Part shown: positions 18,568 through 29,585 of the stretch, in pieces | How the letters are laid out: each line of letters opens with the position of its first letter | Numbering within the stretch: the stretch's first letter is position 1 | Origin: a virus | IMG/VR virus record: IMGVR_UViG_3300047494_000044 | Span: 1 to 44,230 of that record | Strand: one strand, 5' to 3' | Length of the DNA stretch: 44,230 nucleotides | Notes under the pieces: model-generated | What the model saw: the letters and a program-made list of their open reading frames with translations, nothing else | The model's database searches: none | What the model was told of the DNA's origin: nothing | Made by a program: the position numbers and the translations under genes

Positions 18568-20238
18568 TCAGGAGAAAAAGAACTCGGCGTCGAGAACCTC
18601 GGAGACATCGAAGTCTCCTCGAGCAGGAAGAGGAGGAAGGCTGACGTGGGGGGCATAGGTGTGGATATACTCCGCTGTCCGTGCCAGCCAGTCGTCCTTG
18701 TAGATGTCCACAAACGCCTGGCGCAGGATCACCCCCAGCTCGCTGGTGTTGCGCGCGTGAGTGCCGTAGCTGTCGTGGATCATGGAAAACGAACGCATTC
18801 CGCTCTCGTTGGCACGAGCAACGGTCAGCGCCAGGTGTGAGGCGTCAAACGAGTGGACGAAGTTGGGGGCAGACCCAAGGGCCTGCTTGTGGTGGTTAAG
18901 CTGCCCGTTAGGGTCCTCTTGATCGACCCAGACGTCCCCGCAGAGCGTCTCGATCTTGTAGGTCGACTTCTGGTAGTAGGCTTGCCGGCAAAGAGACCCC
19001 GTCGGGGTGACCCAGTCGAACGGCACCTCCGCCTTGGCGAGGCTGTGAGCGGTCGTCTGGAGCCACGCCATGATGCCCTTGGCGCCGCTGACGGCCTGGG
19101 ATAGGGCTTCTGTCATGCAGTCCCGCAGGTAGTCCGCAGCGGGTCCCTTAGGGCCTTCTAGGTCGTCCAGGTGGCCGTCCGCGATGAGCTGCGTGCGGAT
19201 GCCACGGTCTGTGACCCCGTAGGGGGTTGTCATCACGGCCCGCTTGACGGTCTTGCGGTCGACCCTACCGTGCCATTGGAGGGCCTCTGGATGGCCCTTA
19301 GCGGCATCCTCCTCGACCTTCTTCTGCACCAGCTGGGCAACCTCCATATAGATGTCCTGGCGCGGCTGGTTGGCCCGCAGATTGGTTGCAAACGCCCCCA
19401 CGGGATCGAGGCCCATGGCGGATAGATGCTGTAAGCCGTTACATGTACCGTCGAGCTGGATCGGCAGGTGGCTGACGAACTCGTCGGGGTCCTCGGCGCT
19501 CAGGGCCTGTGCCAGCTCGTGGCAGGTGGCCAGGAACTGCCAGGGGTCATCCGCCTGAACCCACAGGTCCCTGCAGCGGATCGGATCCAGGGCGATACGC
19601 GCGATGTCAGTCTGATGATCCATCACCCACTGGACGCGGTCAACCAGGGGCAGCTTGTCCATACCAGCGCATGAAGCCGCCCTGACACACAGCCAGAATA
19701 GGCCATCCGGGCCCAATGGCAGCCCAGTCGCGAACATCAGCAGGCTCTTGCCGAAATCGTTCGCCTGCGGGTTTGGCCCCGTGGTCGAGATTGGATGGAT
19801 GCGACCGCGGAAGCAACGGCTGTGTGGGAACCATATCGAGGCGTAGCCTTCCATCTCCTTGGCCACGGTCAGGTAGTCGAGCAGGGCGCGCTCACGGGAC
19901 TGCTTCCTGGCGTTCTCGGCGTGGATGTCGGCGATGCCGCGCAGCCACTGCTTCTTGCTGTCGGCGTCGAGAGCACCCCAGTGGGCGTCCGACAGCCGGT
20001 CGGGGGTTGACTGGATATAGGTGCGTTCGAGGAAGGGCAGGCGGACGTTGCTGGTCCAAGCGTCCATGGCGACGTCCAGTAGCCACCTATTGATGCGCCA
20101 CTGGGTCGCCTGCACGGCGTTCAGGCCGTCGAGATCAAGCTGTGACACCGGCCGCTCGAGGAGCGCGGTGTGGGCGTGCATACCGCCGCGGATCAGCGGG
20201 GCCTTATGGATGACGAAGCCACCAGTTGCCTGGGTCAT
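18568..20238 (-). CDS. T7-type RNA polymerase, catalytic (C-terminal) subunit of a split enzyme
   Basis: 556 aa covering T7 RNA polymerase from about residue 280 to the C-terminus: 'TGGFVIHKAPLI' aligns with T7 'TGGGYWANGRRPL'. Catalytic residues are present: motif A 'LDGTCNGLQHLSAM' (Asp263 = T7 Asp537), motif B 'DRKTVKRAVMTTPYG' (Lys332 and Tyr340 = T7 Lys631 and Tyr639), motif C 'MIHDSYGT' (Asp489 = T7 Asp812). 'APNFVHSFDASHL' is also conserved. The DxxGR motif reads 'CFRGR' (142-146), with Cys for Asp/Thr. The end 'AEFFFS' resembles T7 'SDFAFA'. The N-terminal domain is a separate upstream gene. The ATG at 20238 has AAGGAG 5 nt upstream, so it is equipped for its own translation. Confidence 0.93.
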   Translation of the reverse strand: MTQATGGFVIHKAPLIRGGMHAHTALLERPVSQLDLDGLNAVQATQWRINRWLLDVAMDAWTSNVRLPFLERTYIQSTPDRLSDAHWGALDADSKKQWLRGIADIHAENARKQSRERALLDYLTVAKEMEGYASIWFPHSRCFRGRIHPISTTGPNPQANDFGKSLLMFATGLPLGPDGLFWLCVRAASCAGMDKLPLVDRVQWVMDHQTDIARIALDPIRCRDLWVQADDPWQFLATCHELAQALSAEDPDEFVSHLPIQLDGTCNGLQHLSAMGLDPVGAFATNLRANQPRQDIYMEVAQLVQKKVEEDAAKGHPEALQWHGRVDRKTVKRAVMTTPYGVTDRGIRTQLIADGHLDDLEGPKGPAADYLRDCMTEALSQAVSGAKGIMAWLQTTAHSLAKAEVPFDWVTPTGSLCRQAYYQKSTYKIETLCGDVWVDQEDPNGQLNHHKQALGSAPNFVHSFDASHLALTVARANESGMRSFSMIHDSYGTHARNTSELGVILRQAFVDIYKDDWLARTAEYIHTYAPHVSLPPLPARGDFDVSEVLDAEFFFS

Positions 20239-20445
20239 GTGCGCTCCTTTGCCGAGGAATTGGTCGGGCATTATAGGCCGGACTCGCCCGTAGTTTCCGG
20301 TGTGCGGAGCGCTACTCCGCCGCGCCTATAGCGACTCGTGGCATTTAGGCTCTCCACGACTGAGCCCCCCGATACGCTTGGCCGGGTCACTCGGGGGCAC
20401 ATGATGGGAGGCTGCGGTGAGACGCAGAACCGGCTGCGTATGGGT
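20239..20445 (-). promoter_or_regulatory. Structured leader upstream of catalytic RNA polymerase gene
   Basis: About 200 non-coding bases with several hairpins: GCCCCCCGA (20364-20372) with TCGGGGGC (20391-20398), GCGGAG (20304-20309) with CTCCGC (20315-20320), and CGTGG (20337-20341) with CCACG (20354-20358). The minus strand also has a perfect TATAAT about 30 nt before the start codon, without a recognisable -35 box. It could be a regulated leader, a weak host promoter, or the distal part of an intron. I did not recognise a group I core. Confidence 0.45.
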
Positions 20446-20610
20446 TCAGCTCTGCTCCTGGCGGTGGCAGTCGGCCACTAAGCGGTCATCGTTGGCCTCG
20501 GCATAGAAGGCCGCAGCGCTGCAGGCTTCAAGGGACGGCAGGGGGCCCTCCCAGAGCACTGAGCAGGACCCCTGAAGACAAAGCTGAATGACGAGTATCC
20601 AGACTGGCAT
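20446..20610 (-). CDS. Small secreted/membrane Cys-containing protein between polymerase halves
   Basis: 54 aa: 'MPVWILVIQLCLQGSC' is a hydrophobic signal-like segment, followed by a small domain with Cys residues in 'LEACSAAAFYA' and 'VADCHRQEQS'. Small phage proteins of this plan (Trp/Ile-rich start, 'LC..GSC', two later Cys) are familiar and probably periplasmic, with unknown function. The ATG at 20610 is preferred over starts inside the promoter element at 20649-20675. It lies downstream of that element and upstream of the catalytic polymerase gene. Confidence 0.65.
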   Translation of the reverse strand: MPVWILVIQLCLQGSCSVLWEGPLPSLEACSAAAFYAEANDDRLVADCHRQEQS

Positions 20611-20648
20611 GAGTTCTGTCCTATTTCGCACAGAAGGCTTTCTGTTGG

Positions 20649-20675
20649 TCGAGGACACCGGTTTAGGCGCATGGT
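20649..20675 (-). promoter_or_regulatory. Candidate phage RNA polymerase promoter A (leftward)
   Basis: On the minus strand it contains TGCGCCTAAACCGGTGTCC and extends to CTCGA, shared with elements at 25564-25598 and 29551-29585. Its upstream part (ACCA) diverges from the TAATACCG of the other two. It points leftward into the small Cys gene and the catalytic polymerase gene, and lies 11 nt after the stop of the N-terminal polymerase gene. The promoter role is inferred from recurrence and orientation. Confidence 0.6.
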
Positions 20676-20679
20676 CTGG

Positions 20680-20691
20680 GGACTGTTAGAG
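20680..20691 (-). promoter_or_regulatory. GGANNGTTAGA-type motif containing the stop codon
   Basis: GGACTGTTAGAG on the plus strand. Its TTA (20686-20688) is the stop codon of the N-terminal RNA polymerase gene on the minus strand. Confidence 0.4.
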
Positions 20692-21477
20692 GGGTGGGTA
20701 AGCCCACGGGATCGGCGGGATGATCATGGGCATGAACTGCGGACGGGCCACCTCCTGGCGCGTGTGAATGTCCCGTATCAGGTCCGTGGTAGCCTGTGTG
20801 GGGCGGATGAAGGCAGTCTGCTTGCTCCCCTTTCGTGCGTAATGGGTCGTGAACCGTTGGGGGGCAGCATCCAGCAGGCACTGAATAAGACAGCCACCCA
20901 GGACGATCTTCAGGCCCTCGCTCCAGGGCTCAGTCCGCAGCTTCAGCACCGCCAGGCGCCACCGCACCCAGGTCCGCCTCTGGACCTTCGGGAACCGGCG
21001 CTGGAAGATCTTCAGGATGTCCCGATGCTGCGGGTCTCCCTTGGCCTCCTTGTTCAGCTCCTTCTGCTCCTCGATCCAACGGCAATACTCGACTTGGTCC
21101 CGCACAGCGTCGGCAATGCCCTTGGCGAGTGCAGTGCGGGTGGCGCCGTCCTGGTTGTGGCTGTTGAGGTAGCTCAGAGCGTCGGTGAGGGTGATGGCTG
21201 CCAGGACGTCGGCCTCGAGCAGGTTGATCACCATGCCCCACTTGGGCTGCTTGGTCTGGCCCTCAATGGCCGCCTCCATCTCCTTCTGCTTCACACGGAT
21301 GTGATCCGATAGGCTGGGGATGATCTCCCTGAGCAGGGCTTTACCAGGCGCCGTGTCCGCCTGCCGACCGGAGGCTTCCGCCTCGGCGACACCCTCACGG
21401 TAGAGCCTGACAGCCCGGTTGGTGCCCTCCTGCTCCCACTTCGCCTGTCGCATCAGATCGAACGCGTCCACAGTCAT
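20686..21477 (-). CDS. T7-type RNA polymerase, N-terminal-domain subunit of a split enzyme
   Basis: 263 aa matching T7 RNA polymerase residues ~35-270 and nothing beyond. 'ADTAPGKALLREIIPSLSDH' aligns with T7 'ADNAAAKPLITTLLPKMIAR'. 'AAITLTDALSYLN' with 'ALAKGIADAVRDQVEY' aligns with T7 'AYITIKTTLACLT' and 'AVASAIGRAIEDEARF'. The end 'RPQFMPMIIPPIPW' aligns with T7 'SPMFQPCVVPPKPW'. In T7 this domain binds the promoter AT-rich region, opens DNA and handles early transcripts. It stops 5 codons after the conserved PPxPW and the catalytic part is a separate gene. The ATG at 21477 has GGAGG about 9 nt upstream. attP lies ~150 bp upstream. Confidence 0.88.
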   Translation of the reverse strand: MTVDAFDLMRQAKWEQEGTNRAVRLYREGVAEAEASGRQADTAPGKALLREIIPSLSDHIRVKQKEMEAAIEGQTKQPKWGMVINLLEADVLAAITLTDALSYLNSHNQDGATRTALAKGIADAVRDQVEYCRWIEEQKELNKEAKGDPQHRDILKIFQRRFPKVQRRTWVRWRLAVLKLRTEPWSEGLKIVLGGCLIQCLLDAAPQRFTTHYARKGSKQTAFIRPTQATTDLIRDIHTRQEVARPQFMPMIIPPIPWAYPPL

Positions 21478-21521
21478 GGGCTGGTCCTCCCTAAGGTTGT
21501 GTGTCGTTTGTGTGCCAAATC

Positions 21522-21555
21522 CCCCCGCCACAGGGGGCTTTTTCCTAACCCCCTG
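21522..21555. terminator. Bistable GC hairpin; plus-strand intrinsic terminator
   Basis: The GGGGG at 21533-21537 can pair with CCCCC at 21522-21526, giving a plus-strand stem followed by CTTTTT, a good terminator for rightward transcripts. Alternatively, CAGGGGG (21531-21537) pairs with CCCCCTG (21549-21555). The two are exclusive. On the minus strand this lies in the leader of the N-terminal RNA polymerase gene, between attP and its start. Confidence 0.55.
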
Positions 21556-21626
21556 AGACTTGGTGTTTATTAGAGTGACGACTATAAGATGCCGCCACAT
21601 ATCAGTTACTTACGAGTGGAAGGGAA

Positions 21627-22608: not shown

Positions 22609-22631
22609 TTCCGTTCCCTGTAGGGAGTGAT

Positions 22632-22739
22632 AGACATGCCTCTAGGATGCCCTAGGAAGCCCGTAGAGGCCCTTCTAGCCCTTCCCTGGTGTAGGTGTAG
22701 CGGGAAGCCCCTAAGGGGCCTGTAGGGGCTTTAAACGGG
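22632..22739 (-). repeat. 108-bp intergenic structured repeat, copy 1
   Basis: Shares blocks AGACATGCC(T/C)CTAG, ATGCCCTAGGA, CTTCCCTGGTGTAGG and GGGCTTTAAA with 27417-27525. On the minus strand CTTCCC and GGGAAG form a stem around a conserved loop (GCTACACCTACACCA), and AAGCCCC pairs with GGGGCTT. It lies between the integrase stop and the next leftward gene, like copy 2 between two leftward genes. Confidence 0.65.
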
Positions 22740-22767
22740 CTTATAGGGGCATGTTGCCGAGGGGCCC

Positions 22768-25229: not shown

Positions 25230-25303
25230 TTAGAGACACCCTTAGAGGGCACTTAGAGAAACCCTTAGAGGGCACTTAGAGAGCACTTAGAGAGCACTTA
25301 GAG
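25230..25303. repeat. Phased TTAGAG array
   Basis: Seven TTAGAG hexamers start at 25230, 25242, 25253, 25265, 25276, 25287 and 25298, spacings of 11-12 bp, about one helical turn, within units resembling GCACTTAGAGA. This presents seven identical sites on one DNA face, as for iterons of an initiator or a cooperative regulator. It lies about 260 bp downstream (leftward) of promoter-like element B. Confidence 0.75.
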
Positions 25304-25429
25304 TGATACACCTACTGTCTATTCTCCTATGTCTTACCGTAGTATGTATCACTCTACGGACACGTAGACACACCTCTAGGACACCTAAAGACATTTCTAG
25401 GGGTATACCTAGAGATAGCTTTAGAGACA

Positions 25430-25545
25430 CTTAGAGATACCGCTAGAAACATTCTAAGGGTCCTATTAGGTGTTGTTTAGGTGACCTTTAGATACATCTA
25501 TAGAATATCTATTAGGTATTATATTAAGTATGTTTTTTCGGAGGG
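25430..25545. other. AT-rich segment, candidate replication origin
   Basis: Strongly AT-rich in an otherwise GC-rich genome, including TATAGAATATCTATTAGG and TATTATATTAAGTATG. It is placed just downstream of promoter-like element B when read leftward. In T7 the primary origin is an AT-rich region directly behind phage promoters, so the arrangement suggests an origin. This is inference only. Confidence 0.4.
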
Positions 25546-25563
25546 TAGGGAGGGGCCCCCTCT

Positions 25564-25598
25564 TCGAGGACACCGTTTTAGGCGCACGGTATTATTGC
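25564..25598 (-). promoter_or_regulatory. Candidate phage RNA polymerase promoter B (leftward)
   Basis: The minus strand reads GCAATAATACCGTGCGCC followed by TAAAACGGTGTCCTCGA; 34 of 35 bases match element C at 29551-29585. TAATAC matches the start of the T7 promoter consensus. Directed leftward into the XRE/integrase region. No other function explains a copy in each orientation facing the corresponding genes. Confidence 0.65.
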
Positions 25599-25653
25599 GC
25601 ATCTGGGATGCGTGTAGATCATGGCTGTCTGCAGGGCACCTAGCGGGCACCTA

Positions 25654-25676
25654 GGACGGACTCCGTTCCGTCGTCC
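25654..25676. repeat. Dual-hairpin-like micro-element (degenerate)
   Basis: ACGGA/TCCGT-type pairing around CT, plus GGAC...GTCC outer pairing. Same base vocabulary as the perfect copies. Lies just past the pentapeptide gene stop. Confidence 0.45.
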
Positions 25677-25698
25677 CTAGCGGGCACCTAGCGGCCAG

Positions 25699-26340
25699 TC
25701 AGGCGCGGGAAACGGAGTGTGCATACAAATCTGGCAGGAGCGCGTCTCTCAGGTGCGCCCCAATCAGGTTCGCCCCGCCCAGGCTTGCCCCAATCAGGTT
25801 CGCCCCAATCAGGTTCGCCGCGCTCAGGTTCGCCCCGCTCAGGTTCGCCCTGGTCAGGTCTGCCCACAGCAGGTTCACCCCGCTCAGGTTCGCCCCGCTC
25901 GGGTTCGCCCCCCTCAGGTTCGCCCCAATCAGGTTCGCCCCGCTCAGGTTTGCCCACCGCAGGTCTGCCCCCCTCAGGTTCGCCCCAATCAGGTTCGCCC
26001 TGGTCAGGTCTGCCCGCAGCAGGTTCGCCCCGCTCAGGTTCGCCCCAATCAGGTTCGCCCCGGTCAGGTCTGTCCTGGTCAGGGTTGCCCACCGCAGGTC
26101 TACCCTGCTCAGGCTTGCCCCAATCAGGTTCGCCCCGCTTAGGTCCGCCCAGCTCAGGTTCGCCCCGCTCAGGTTCGCCCCGCTTAGGTCCGCCCAGCTC
26201 AGGTTCACCCCGCTCAGGTTCACCCCGCTCAGGTCTGCCCCGCTCAGGTCTGTCCAGCTCAGTTCTGCCCGCGCGCCACCAGGATCGTTATCGAGCCACG
26301 CCCGATGCGATTGCAGGACTCTGTCAATGTCAGCACGCAC
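25699..26340 (-). CDS. Pentapeptide repeat protein
   Basis: 213 aa; after ~30 residues ('DRVLQSHRAWLDND') almost the whole protein is A(D/N)LSxAN-type pentapeptide repeats, about 34 units, predicting a right-handed quadrilateral beta-helix. Such rods can mimic DNA (Qnr and MfpA bind gyrase). Here the early position would fit inhibition of a host DNA-binding enzyme, an inference. The GTG at 26340 is chosen because TTGGAG lies 6 nt upstream, at the end of the 26347-26430 leader element. The DNA itself is repetitive (variants of CAGGTTCGCCCC), which favours unit gain and loss. Confidence 0.85.
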   Translation of the reverse strand: MRADIDRVLQSHRAWLDNDPGGARAELSWTDLSGADLSGVNLSGVNLSWADLSGANLSGANLSWADLSGANLIGASLSRVDLRWATLTRTDLTGANLIGANLSGANLLRADLTRANLIGANLRGADLRWANLSGANLIGANLRGANPSGANLSGVNLLWADLTRANLSGANLSAANLIGANLIGASLGGANLIGAHLRDALLPDLYAHSVSRA

Positions 26341-26346
26341 GTTCCG

Positions 26347-26430
26347 CTCCAATGTCTCACTGCTAGGTCAGCCGCATTGCTGGCCTATGAGCGAGACACG
26401 CCAACGGCTAGCGTTGGCAATGTCTGCGGA
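26347..26430 (-). promoter_or_regulatory. Structured leader element, copy 1
   Basis: 84-bp element whose minus-strand 3' end supplies the TTGGAG ribosome binding site of the pentapeptide gene. Stems: GCCAACG/CGTTGGC around CTAGC; TGTCTCGCT/AGTGAGACA enclosing TAGGCCAGC/GCTGACCTA. The first stem differs from copy 2 in both arms with pairing kept. AGACA at the 5' end can compete for TGTCT. See copies at 28046-28129 and 28824-28906. Confidence 0.7.
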
Positions 26431-26526
26431 GGGGGGGTGGCTGCAACTATCCCCCGGACTTCGTTGCAACCTATGGCGTCGTAAGGGGCCTGAGTGGCAA
26501 GGCCCTCCGAGGGACCAAGCTGCAAA

Positions 26527-26706
26527 TTATCGTTGGGCAACCTCGTCGCAAAACGCCTTCAGCGCTTCGTTCCGCGCTTCAATGTCATCAGGGCCGAACT
26601 CGGCCGCGCGCGCTGCCCATTCGGCGTTCAACGCGTCCATTTCAGCCTGTGTGTAGCCCTCGCAGGTTGTCAGCATGAAGGGGGTCGTCGTGAAGGGGTC
26701 TATCAT
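26527..26706 (-). CDS. Hypothetical 59-aa early protein
   Basis: An acidic small protein ('MIDPFTTTPFMLTTCEGY', then helical 'AEMDALNAEWAARAAEFGPD'). The ATG at 26706 has AGGAG 6 nt upstream. Followed by ~100 bp without a gene and then leader element copy 1. Early-region genes of this size often encode host-takeover factors; nothing specific is visible. Confidence 0.65.
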   Translation of the reverse strand: MIDPFTTTPFMLTTCEGYTQAEMDALNAEWAARAAEFGPDDIEARNEALKAFCDEVAQR

Positions 26707-26748
26707 TGTTCGCTCCTGATTGTTCAAAGCGTGCCCTAGGACTGCCCC

Positions 26749-26772
26749 GGGGCACGAAACGTGCCGTTTCCC
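26749..26772. repeat. Dual-hairpin micro-element
   Basis: GGCACG/CGTGCC or GAAACG/CGTTTC, both perfect 6-bp stems with 3-nt loops and shared bases: the same 20-nt geometry as 3236-3258 with different arm sequences. Located in the leader of the 26527-26706 gene. Confidence 0.65.
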
Positions 26773-26809
26773 ATGTCAGTATAACCCCGCAAGGCTACAC
26801 CAGGCTAGG

Positions 26810-26995
26810 TCAGGCTGCTTCGAGGGCAGTGTAGCGGCGCCGCAGCTCTGCCTCACAGTCTGCCTTAGCGGCTCCTACGCGCGCGTGCTCGCGCCCTGAG
26901 AGCGGCTGCTGCTCAAGCCAGGTGTAGAGGTCTGCTACTGCCTCGAGGGCGTTGAGGCTCAGGGACCGGGTCTCGGTGCCGAAATGATACCTCAT
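26810..26995 (-). CDS. Hypothetical 61-aa early protein
   Basis: A helical charged protein ('SLNALEAVADLYTWLEQQPL', 'AAKADCEAELRRRYTALEAA'). The start overlaps the upstream stop (ATGA), so it is coupled to the small membrane protein gene. No family recognised. Confidence 0.65.
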   Translation of the reverse strand: MRYHFGTETRSLSLNALEAVADLYTWLEQQPLSGREHARVGAAKADCEAELRRRYTALEAA

Positions 26996-27129
26996 CACAC
27001 TGCCCCCTTACGTGCCGGGAGCATCCCAGCCACCGCGGGAGCCAGAAGGCTGCCCAGGGTCAGCCCCGCCAGGGCCAGAAAGATCAGCACTCCAATGTCT
27101 GCCAGCATCTGCGTCAGCATGGCCACCAT
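26995..27129 (-). CDS. Small membrane protein (early)
   Basis: 44 aa with one hydrophobic helix ('MLADIGVLIFLALAGLTLGS') continuing into 'LLAPAVAGM' and a basic end. GGAGG is 8 nt before the ATG at 27129; longer starts would lie within the upstream gene. Possibly involved in membrane takeover or exclusion, not determinable. Confidence 0.65.
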   Translation of the reverse strand: MVAMLTQMLADIGVLIFLALAGLTLGSLLAPAVAGMLPARKGAV

Positions 27130-27130
27130 G

Positions 27131-27328
27131 TCACTTGCCTCCCTGAATACGCACGTCATAGTCGACTGCCAGGGGTGACACCCCGAACTCCCGGGCAAAC
27201 CGGCGGATGGTCTCCCCGATCCGGTGCTTGAGCGGGATATCGCCGCTGCATGGCATCCGCACCGTCCGCGCGGCACTGCTGCTGCTCGGCACGGCCAAGG
27301 TCACGATAGCCTGTCGCTTGATATGCAT
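27131..27328 (-). CDS. Hypothetical 65-aa early protein
   Basis: A basic protein: 'HIKRQAIVTLAVP', then 'GETIRRFAREFGVSPLAVDY', which could be a short helix-turn-helix-like segment, ending 'DVRIQGGK'. AGGAG precedes the ATG. Ends 2 nt before the next start. No firm family. Confidence 0.6.
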   Translation of the reverse strand: MHIKRQAIVTLAVPSSSSAARTVRMPCSGDIPLKHRIGETIRRFAREFGVSPLAVDYDVRIQGGK

Positions 27329-27416
27329 GGTCGTCTCCTACCTTTTGTGGCTGCTCACTGCTGCGTCAGGGGTATCCTGGCGCATGAACGAACAGTCTGC
27401 TGGTGTGGGGAATGGT

Positions 27417-27525
27417 AGACATGCCCCTAGAATGCCCTAGGATGAGGCTACAGGGCCCTCTGCTGCTTCCCTGGTGTAGGCGTAGCTGGAAGCAGTCGAG
27501 AGCCCTGTGCGGGCTTTAAAACGGG
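27417..27525 (-). repeat. 108-bp intergenic structured repeat, copy 2
   Basis: Paired with 22632-22739. Its minus-strand stem is CTGCTTCC/GGAAGCAG around the loop AGCTACGCCTACACCAG, longer than in copy 1 and with changed flanks, while the loop is almost unchanged. AGCCC/GGGCT forms a second small stem. Lies just 3' of the gene ending at 27529. Confidence 0.65.
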
Positions 27526-27528
27526 TTT

Positions 27529-27813
27529 CTATAGCAACACCTCTCCATCGGTCATGCTGATGTCCAGCCACACCCTGCCCAGCGCATCGAGGCTGCAGAC
27601 GCCAACCTCCTGATACTGGGCGTCACCATCACTCAGGGATTGCCTGCGCGTGATGTAGAACTTGCAGCGGTGAATGCGGGCAAGCTGTTTGGCGCTGCGC
27701 TCTGCTGCTTCGATGGTTGGGAGATAGCGTCCCCTGATGCGGCGGAGCGTGTCATAGCCCTGCACAAAGTATTCAGCGGCCACGACCGTGCGGTCTGCCT
27801 TGTGCTTGGCCAT
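27529..27813 (-). CDS. Hypothetical 94-aa early protein
   Basis: A basic N-terminus ('MAKHKADRTVVAAEYFVQGY', 'LRRIRGRYLPTIEAAERSAK') and beta-type C-terminus ('CSLDALGRVWLDISM'). GGGAGG lies 8 nt before the ATG, inside the end of the upstream gene. No known family. Confidence 0.65.
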   Translation of the reverse strand: MAKHKADRTVVAAEYFVQGYDTLRRIRGRYLPTIEAAERSAKQLARIHRCKFYITRRQSLSDGDAQYQEVGVCSLDALGRVWLDISMTDGEVLL

Positions 27814-27816
27814 GGC

Positions 27817-28035
27817 TCAATCCTCCCGCGTCAATTCATGCGCGATGAACGGGTCCTCTTCCCGCCCGTCGTGTGCGTCAGTGAACGCAATCGCGCGGAG
27901 TGTTCCCTTGCCGTCTCGGTTCAGGGAGCAGGGAAACGAGACGATGGGCGTAAAGTCGGAGTCCAGCACCATGGTTGCGATGATGTGGGTTTGCGCGCCC
28001 TGGCCAACACTTAGCGGCCATATAGATGATGTCAT
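27817..28035 (-). CDS. Hypothetical 72-aa early protein
   Basis: A mixed alpha/beta protein ('THIIATMVLDSDFTPIVSF', ending 'EDPFIAHELTRED'). The ATG at 28035 is preceded by TTGGAG (10 nt spacing), which is the 3' end of leader element copy 2; a GTG further upstream would lie inside the element's stem. Function unknown. Confidence 0.65.
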   Translation of the reverse strand: MTSSIWPLSVGQGAQTHIIATMVLDSDFTPIVSFPCSLNRDGKGTLRAIAFTDAHDGREEDPFIAHELTRED

Positions 28036-28045
28036 GTCGTGGTTG

Positions 28046-28129
28046 CTCCAATGTCTCACTGCTAGGTCAGCCACATTGCTGGCCTATGAGCGAGACACGC
28101 TAGCGTCTAGCGCTAGCAATGTCTGCGGA
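28046..28129 (-). promoter_or_regulatory. Structured leader element, copy 2
   Basis: Same architecture as copy 1: hairpin GCTAGCG-CTAGA-CGCTAGC, then TGTCTCGCT/AGTGAGACA enclosing TAGGCCAGC/GCTGACCTA, ending in TTGGAG for the next gene. The seventh pair of the long stem is G-U on the minus-strand RNA but mismatched on the plus strand, favouring function in the leftward transcript. Confidence 0.7.
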
Positions 28130-28139
28130 TTGTTAGAGC
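28128..28139 (-). promoter_or_regulatory. GGANNGTTAGA-type motif containing the stop codon
   Basis: GGATTGTTAGAG; its TTA (28133-28135) is the stop codon of the 28133-28813 gene. It abuts leader element copy 2. Confidence 0.4.
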
Positions 28140-28813
28140 GCTCGGGCAGCAATCCGGGCCTTCCCCTTGCTGTAACCGTGTGCCGGAAAACCAACGATCA
28201 CCTTGCGGTCCTGCCGTTGGCACAACCCGCATGATGCGCAGGTTACATCGTCGCGATAGGTTGCCGGACAGGTTGCAACCTTGCGACCGCCTGGCGTCAC
28301 GGTGTCAGCCCGCACACCCTCATCAGCATCCTGAACGACGACGACGGGAGCAATGCCAAGCGCTGCTAACTTGTCTGCTTCCTCGAGCGTGTTGGCTGAC
28401 AGGTTGACCGTGAGGCCCTGGCGATTGGCCACAGCCACAGCACCCTGATTACGAACGTCAGCCATAGGCTTGTGGGTGTAAGTAAACCCGCGCCGTCCGC
28501 GATTGGCGTCGACTAGGTCTAGCAGCGCCTCACGGTCAATCGTGTCGCCATTGCCTGGCAAATCTCCCGCTTGGTTATGGCGCCACAGCGTGCCAGCGGG
28601 AAGCGCTGCAATCTTTGACGTGAACGCATCCCAGTCCATTGAATGCTTCCCTGCGTCGGTTTCTTTCCAGACAATGGCAAGAGGTCCTCCCTTAGCGTAG
28701 CAGCCCCCCGACTTCAGCGGGCAAGCATCCGGGCAAGTGACGCTCTCAGACGTCGAGACCGGTATTGGCCCAACTTTGCGATTAGATGACTTCATTGTGA
28801 GGCGAACAAACAT
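28133..28813 (-). CDS. DUF7227-like Cys-rich phage protein
   Basis: 226 aa. 'CPDACPLKSGGCYAKGGPLA' near residue 27, 'LPAGTLWRHNQAGDLPG' and 'GRRGFTYTHKP' in the middle, and 'TCPATYRDDVTCASCGLCQR' followed by 'VIVGFPAHG' at the end match a family I know from phage genomes as DUF7227. The first Cys cluster resembles iron-sulphur or zinc clusters of phage gp37/gp68-like radical SAM proteins, but no proof of that chemistry is visible. Function unknown. The start lies after leader element copy 3, with AGGG upstream. Confidence 0.7.
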   Translation of the reverse strand: MFVRLTMKSSNRKVGPIPVSTSESVTCPDACPLKSGGCYAKGGPLAIVWKETDAGKHSMDWDAFTSKIAALPAGTLWRHNQAGDLPGNGDTIDREALLDLVDANRGRRGFTYTHKPMADVRNQGAVAVANRQGLTVNLSANTLEEADKLAALGIAPVVVVQDADEGVRADTVTPGGRKVATCPATYRDDVTCASCGLCQRQDRKVIVGFPAHGYSKGKARIAARAL

Positions 28814-28823
28814 TCTGAAATAT

Positions 28824-28906
28824 CCCTGTATCTTGCTGCTAAGTCAGCTGCACTGCTGGCCTATGAGCAAGACACGCTAGCGTCTAGTGCTAGCAATGTC
28901 TGCGGA
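28824..28906 (-). promoter_or_regulatory. Structured leader element, copy 3
   Basis: Diverged copy (83 bp). Stem TGTCTTGCT/AGCAAGATA keeps pairing through paired changes relative to copies 1 and 2 (C-G to U-A, G-U to G-C). The upstream hairpin is GCTAGC/GCTAGC. The 3' end leads into CAGGG before the DUF7227-like gene start at 28813. Confidence 0.65.
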
Positions 28907-28916
28907 GCGTTAGACT
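28905..28916 (-). promoter_or_regulatory. GGANNGTTAGA-type motif containing the stop codon
   Basis: GGAGCGTTAGAC; its TTA (28910-28912) is the stop codon of the 28910-29290 gene, immediately before leader element copy 3. Confidence 0.4.
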
Positions 28917-29290
28917 GCACAAAAAACCTGCAATCCACAATTCTCCACAACGCGAGTCCAGTCCTGGCTGCCATTGGCATTCATCGCGTTTACGATGTTC
29001 AATGCGATAGCAATTTCATCCGCGAAACGTGGATCGTGGTTCATGTCCTTTTTCGGAAAATACTTTTTCATTCCGTCAAGAAACGCTGCGCTACGTTTAT
29101 CATATCCGAAACCGTTAGCTGTTCCTCTCTTCATTTCAATTCCGAGGATATGCACAAAGCACGTCAGGCGCCCGGCACCATCGCGGGGACGCTTAAAAGC
29201 AACCCGTCCTATTAATCTACCATCCTTGAGGATGACGTAAGCGGACACCTGGCGAAACGCCGCGTCGTGTTGGTAATAAACTGCAGACAT
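28910..29290 (-). CDS. Hypothetical 126-aa first early protein
   Basis: The first gene of the leftward early region. Mixed alpha/beta protein: 'AFRQVSAYVILKDGRLIGRV', 'LTCFVHILGIEMKRGTANGF', 'FLDGMKKYFPKKDMNHD'. Lower GC than its neighbours, suggesting recent acquisition. No family I can name. No leader element of the repeated type precedes it; its leader is the unique sequence 29291-29550. Confidence 0.65.
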   Translation of the reverse strand: MSAVYYQHDAAFRQVSAYVILKDGRLIGRVAFKRPRDGAGRLTCFVHILGIEMKRGTANGFGYDKRSAAFLDGMKKYFPKKDMNHDPRFADEIAIALNIVNAMNANGSQDWTRVVENCGLQVFCAV

Positions 29291-29550
29291 TGTTTTGATC
29301 CCTTTGGCTACCGGCTGACACGGAACAATCCCGTATCATGCGGAAACCATGACCATAATCCACAAAGGATCGTGGCCACGGGTTTTAGCTTCTTTGAATG
29401 TCAATCAGTGTTAGAGGCTTGAAAGCGCCGGTCTCGGAAACCCGCTTGAACCGTTACGCAATCAATCTCCGCGCACATAGGACCACAATCGGCGATCCAT
29501 GTCACTAACTATCGACACTGTTAGAGTTTATATAGTTGCATATCAGCCAT

Positions 29551-29585
29551 GCAATAATACCGTGCGCCTAAACCGGTGTCCTCGA
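29551..29585 (+). promoter_or_regulatory. Candidate phage RNA polymerase promoter C (late, rightward)
   Basis: GCAATAATACCGTGCGCC then TAAACCGGTGTCCTCGA, the best copy of the three-member family and the only one on the plus strand. It is directed at the late operon, whose first gene starts at 30057 after a ~470-nt leader. The TAATAC resembles the -17 to -12 bases of T7 promoters. Confidence 0.7.

Follow-up and report, generated by a model that had tools for sequence, protein, structure and literature searches.

The early leftward region of the phage

The window, by which we mean the whole stretch of DNA analysed, comprises the 44,230 bases of a virus record. Its genes include those for an integrase and a cI-like repressor as well as for a primase/helicase, a Gp2.5-like protein, a DNA polymerase and a T7-type RNA polymerase, the last of these in two pieces. 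The presence of an integrase and a cI-like repressor together with a single-subunit RNA polymerase and T7-type replication genes indicates a temperate T7-like phage. The RNA polymerase gene (18568–21600, minus strand) is divided into two open frames separated by approximately 415 nt, and the two frames combined cover the family profile almost without gaps. An Rfam intron match was sought for this split gene and none was found. The gap contains one of three occurrences of a 23-mer, TCGAGGACACCGGTTTAGGCGCA (20649, plus strand); the others are at 25564 (plus strand) and 29585 (minus strand), and one of the three has a single mismatch. The copies at 25564 and 29585 form an inverted repeat that flanks the early gene cluster, each with a promoter-like site pointing inward, and possible roles for this pair are operators, promoters or the ends of an invertible segment. 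The stretch from the repressor to the pentapeptide-repeat gene (25230–25700) is dense in short repeats of the CTTAGAGNGCAC type, which are also possible operators.

Five genes of the early leftward region, all on the minus strand, are considered here. The 126-aa gene (28910–29290) has no family match and is followed by a DUF7227 gene (28133–28813), two genes for unknown proteins of 72 aa (27817–28035) and 65 aa (27131–27328), and a pentapeptide-repeat gene with a GTG start (25699–26340). A promoter-like site on the same strand (29554–29582; AGGACA, 17 nt, TATTAT), identified by consensus match only, lies 5′ of all the hairpins described below. The other small genes in the cluster mostly abut the preceding gene; a 66-aa gene (26527–26727) has a hairpin of its own, unlike those of the five genes.

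A covarying hairpin before five early genes

The preliminary description reported three copies of an 84-nt element, at 26347–26430, 28046–28129 and 28824–28906. All three are present, and the count was too low, since the long hairpin of the element occurs five times. The copies, designated C1 to C5, are on the minus strand, confirming that they have the sense of the downstream genes. The long hairpin of C1 (26352–26399) lies 5′ of the pentapeptide-repeat gene, that of C2 (28051–28098) 5′ of the 72-aa gene and that of C3 (28828–28875) 5′ of the DUF7227 gene, while the divergent copies C4 (27350–27396) and C5 (29304–29350) precede the 65-aa and 126-aa genes, respectively. In all five cases the end of the copy is 12–22 nt from the start of the leftward gene. 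C2 and C3 begin 3 nt past the preceding stop codon and occupy the whole gene junction. The hexamer TTGGAG, a likely ribosome binding site, closes both C1 (26347–26352) and C2 (28046–28051), as had been noted for two of the copies.

Among the full-length copies, identity is 93% between C1 and C2 and 79% between C1 and C3. The three helices originally described as shared are indeed common to C1–C3, in which an accessory first stem (26400–26418, 28099–28117 and 28876–28894, respectively, all minus strand) precedes the long hairpin; C4 and C5 are without it. Because only C1–C3 have this first stem and, at their 5′ end, the AGACA tail, the common core of the family is the long hairpin.

The two divergent copies were recovered by a covariance model built from C1–C3 and searched unfiltered, C4 at 27351–27395 (23.4 bits, E 2.6e-5) and C5 at 29299–29366 (18.7 bits, E 7e-4). 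A pattern scan of the window, specifying a lower stem of 8 (at most one mismatch), a CA/GC internal loop and an upper stem of 7–9 (at most one mismatch), gave five matches, exactly C1–C5 and all on the minus strand; the expectation from the shuffled window is 0.14, a value that is somewhat flattering because the CA/GC requirement was picked after the copies were known. With a model built from all five copies, C1–C5 score 54–67 bits and the next minus-strand place 10 bits; as the copies themselves built this model, its scores describe separation and add no new evidence.

Comparison of the copies bears out the earlier statement that both the first stem and the long stem change on both sides with pairing kept. 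Of the six differences between C1 and C2, four make up two full pair exchanges in the first stem and the other two fall on unpaired bases; between C2 and C3 there are 13, one of which breaks a pair. Over the five copies, two-sided changes are found at 10 of the 16 scored pairs. Paired cells make up 98.8% of the total compared with 80.9% in shuffles, none of 500 shuffles reaching the observed value, and a control in which partners were slid left at most 56% of cells paired. As a small sample of five related copies from one genome, this covariation is strong yet weaker than a cross-species comparison. The minus-strand folds of C1, C2 and C3 give z values of −4.3, −4.1 and −3.1 against shuffles.

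The 18 stem positions of the five copies comprise 75 Watson-Crick pairs, 10 G.U pairs in the gene sense, four C.A pairs and one other. All four C.A pairs fall at a single position in the upper stem of C1–C4 and correspond to G.U on the opposite strand, so that the G.U wobbles favor the gene-sense strand by 10 to 4. The claim that the wobbles pair only in minus-strand RNA therefore holds for the lower stem and fails in the upper stem, where the gene-sense strand carries the C.A. The 2x2 CA/GC internal loop is invariant across the five copies, while the stems and the apical loop vary. Both covariation and placement support an RNA that is structured in the same sense as the early genes and lies just 5′ of their ribosome binding sites, and it is the shape of the hairpin family more than its sequence that is conserved.

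Two other roles were considered and ruled out. On the opposite strand the fold of C5 is clearly poorer and C4 no longer forms an intact lower stem, which excludes function there, and intrinsic termination is excluded by the lack of a terminator-like site at any copy. A switch in which the 5′ AGACA would replace the long stem by pairing with TGTCT, suggested in the preliminary description, has to be abandoned: the alternative is approximately 12 kcal/mol less stable, and C4 and C5 have no such tail.

The 5′ tail of C1–C3, GCAGACATTG (26418–26427, 28117–28126 and 28894–28903, minus strand), is the exact complement of CAATGTCTGC, located where the 126-aa gene has its start codon (29283–29292, minus strand). 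GCAGACATTGGAG also occurs at 27102 (minus strand), within a small frame, and the complementarity between GCAGACATTG and CAATGTCTGC may be due to chance. The region also contains a second structured-looking intergenic repeat on the minus strand, with copies at 22619–22742 and 27404–27527 that are 75% identical over 124 nt; the latter copy is directly 5′ of C4.

Comparison with known phage RNAs

Phage T7 is a classical case of early-mRNA hairpins that RNase III cuts. For the comparison the T7 genome record was used, with cut coordinates from the Dunn and Studier map rather than from that record. When folded, the T7 sites R0.3, R0.5, R1, R1.1 and R1.3 each consist of a lower stem, a small internal loop, an upper stem of 9–10 bp and a short apical loop, and they lie 19–24 nt before the gene start. 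Seven T7 sites (these five together with R4.7 and R18.5) covary among themselves in the same way as the copies.

The copies, like the T7 sites, are repeated, covarying intergenic hairpins near start codons in a phage with a T7-type RNA polymerase. They are two-turn hairpins with a small internal loop at about mid-stem, an upper stem of 9–10 bp and, usually, a wobble-type fifth pair, and they are situated at early-gene junctions, shortly 5′ of the start codon, on the transcribed strand. The fifth upper-stem pair is U.G in five of the seven T7 sites and C.A in C1–C4. A protonated C.A can adopt a U.G-like wobble shape. The internal loop is 2x2 (CA/GC) in the copies, in contrast to 2/3 in the T7 sites, so that they lack the asymmetric loop that is typical of T7 though not a general requirement of RNase III. 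The extra 5′ hairpin of three copies, the different sequence and the temperate phage also set them apart from the T7 sites.

Of 17 leaders in T7, a descriptor of the T7 geometry matches five, each a known site (0.05 expected); of 11 leaders in the phage studied here it also matches five (0.20 expected). Among related phages, it finds one match each in Lo5R7ANS, LUZ100 and P14 and none in Pasto. Kinship in sequence was not detected by either model search: the five-copy model recovered no site in T7, and the T7-site model placed its best matches in the window at C1 and C2 on the antisense strand (14.8 bits, E ~0.5). The likeness to T7 RNase III sites proposed at the outset thus stands for geometry, and sequence kinship is not established by the models in either direction. 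We propose that the hairpins would work like a T7 RNase III site, as putative members of that class.

The model substrate R1.1, from the T7 early region, is a hairpin of 60 nt whose internal loop is asymmetric (PMC6121014); lambda and T3 have known RNase III sites as well (PMC5371410). The lambda N and cIII leaders are RNase III sites in which RNase III is tied to translation (PMC5371410); like the copies, each is the structured leader of a temperate-phage early gene, but these are single leaders rather than a repeated family ahead of five genes. A literature search found no report of T7-style RNase III early-mRNA sites elsewhere in the family of T7.

Two other phage systems invite comparison. 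Cluster K mycobacteriophages have start-associated sequences (SAS) and extended SAS; the SAS is a conserved 13-bp sequence at the gene start, GGGATAGGAGCCC, and about half have imperfect 17-bp inverted repeats upstream (PMC3203893). Both the SAS and the copies are repeats associated with the starts of some of the genes. However, the SAS keeps its sequence, while the copies keep a shape, with the hairpin ending before the start signal, and GGGATAGGAGCCC is absent from all five leaders. The put element of HK022 is a cis-acting structured RNA in the early transcripts of a temperate phage that needs no phage protein (PMC11658703); it differs from the copies, which are repeated gene by gene and of which C4 makes do with a single hairpin.

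The covariance models of Rfam 15 gave no match at the gathering score, and a permissive search added nothing beyond two matches at the level of chance, to families from eukaryotes or viruses. A blastn search of the element against phage and plasmid collections yielded nothing of note, and two pattern scans of IMG/VR produced chance matches and one unrelated coding sequence. Relatives sought through the RNA polymerase, terminase, primase and 126-aa early protein were distant, the exception being a 6-kb contig with a terminase match of 99%, which does not extend to the hairpin region, and the element was found in none of those recovered. As judged from these searches, from which records very close to the window may have been absent, the hairpin sequence family is not found elsewhere. 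On a different phage contig (positions 6001–7896), the gene for a homologue of the 126-aa early protein, with 45% identity, lies close to a pentapeptide-repeat gene and a weak integrase match, but the hairpin is lacking.

Proposed role of the hairpins and alternatives

We consider it somewhat probable that the five hairpins are RNase III processing sites, here putative, between the genes of the early leftward transcript. Host RNA polymerase would transcribe leftward from a putative promoter near 29.55 kb, presumably as a single transcription unit, and each hairpin would fold during its synthesis. Host RNase III would bind the stem of ~20 bp and, we presume, cut at the central CA/GC internal loop or close to it, splitting the long early RNA into separate mRNAs, each beginning 20–40 nt 5′ of a start codon, while the remaining part of the hairpin would stay on the upstream RNA piece. 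Such cutting may influence translation or stability. Modelling of whether cutting frees the ribosome binding site gave no consistent prediction, the predicted exposure improving in three leaders, staying the same in one and falling in C1.

Several observations argue for RNase III sites: there are five copies, against 0.14 expected by chance, all on the minus strand and 12–22 nt before early-gene starts; pairs change on both sides, with the G.U bias toward the gene sense; the T7 sites have the same plan, and one descriptor marks leaders in both phages; variation affects the apical loop and spares the internal one; and both the RNA polymerase and the replication genes of the phage are of T7 type. 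The case is weakened by the 2x2 loop, the absent or weak cross-matches of the models, the mixed predictions of exposure and the few descriptor matches in relatives.

The invariance of the internal loop within varying stems, together with the retention of the C.A mismatch in four of the five copies and the placement of one element before five genes with its end 12–22 nt from the start, could also be expected of a shared RNA operator, through which a protein of phage or host origin, bound to the CA/GC loop and its stem, would jointly repress or activate the five genes at the level of translation. The apical loop, a common point of protein contact, varies, however, no candidate binding protein was identified, and the T7 precedent accounts for the same anatomy; we regard such an operator as unlikely. 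A new operator class, in which a factor reading the CA/GC loop, and perhaps the C.A, co-controls the five early genes, for example in the lysis-lysogeny decision, appears decidedly doubtful. There is likewise little likelihood that the hairpins are passive insulators which, uncut, shield mRNA ends from nucleases or keep the ribosome binding site clear of upstream RNA that would otherwise fold over it. They are stable and intergenic, and their spacing to the start accommodates a ribosome, but for passive protection there would be no need of a central CA/GC loop that stays fixed in stems that vary.

It is very unlikely that the copies are repeated DNA modules, spread with gene cassettes or providing homology for early-gene exchange, in which the RNA shape is incidental. 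The filling of two junctions from 3 nt past the stop codon and the 93% identity of C1 and C2 would fit this origin, but the single orientation, the compensatory changes, the strand-biased G.U pairs and the near-fixed distance to the start favor an RNA function, and the phage and plasmid collections are without copies. Most improbable is a put-like antitermination RNA acting in cis on RNA polymerase, which the early operon of a temperate phage and the two adjacent hairpins of C1–C3 bring to mind, but C4 is without the first hairpin, a cis antiterminator is not expected ahead of every gene, and an Rfam match is absent.

Read as RNase III sites, the hairpins form a covarying set in a temperate relative of T7, unlike those of T7 in sequence and alike in geometry, which would suggest that phages of this kind have kept early-mRNA cutting widely or repeatedly. 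The five natural variants of a compact hairpin also offer material for studying the roles of the internal loop and the wobble-type pair.
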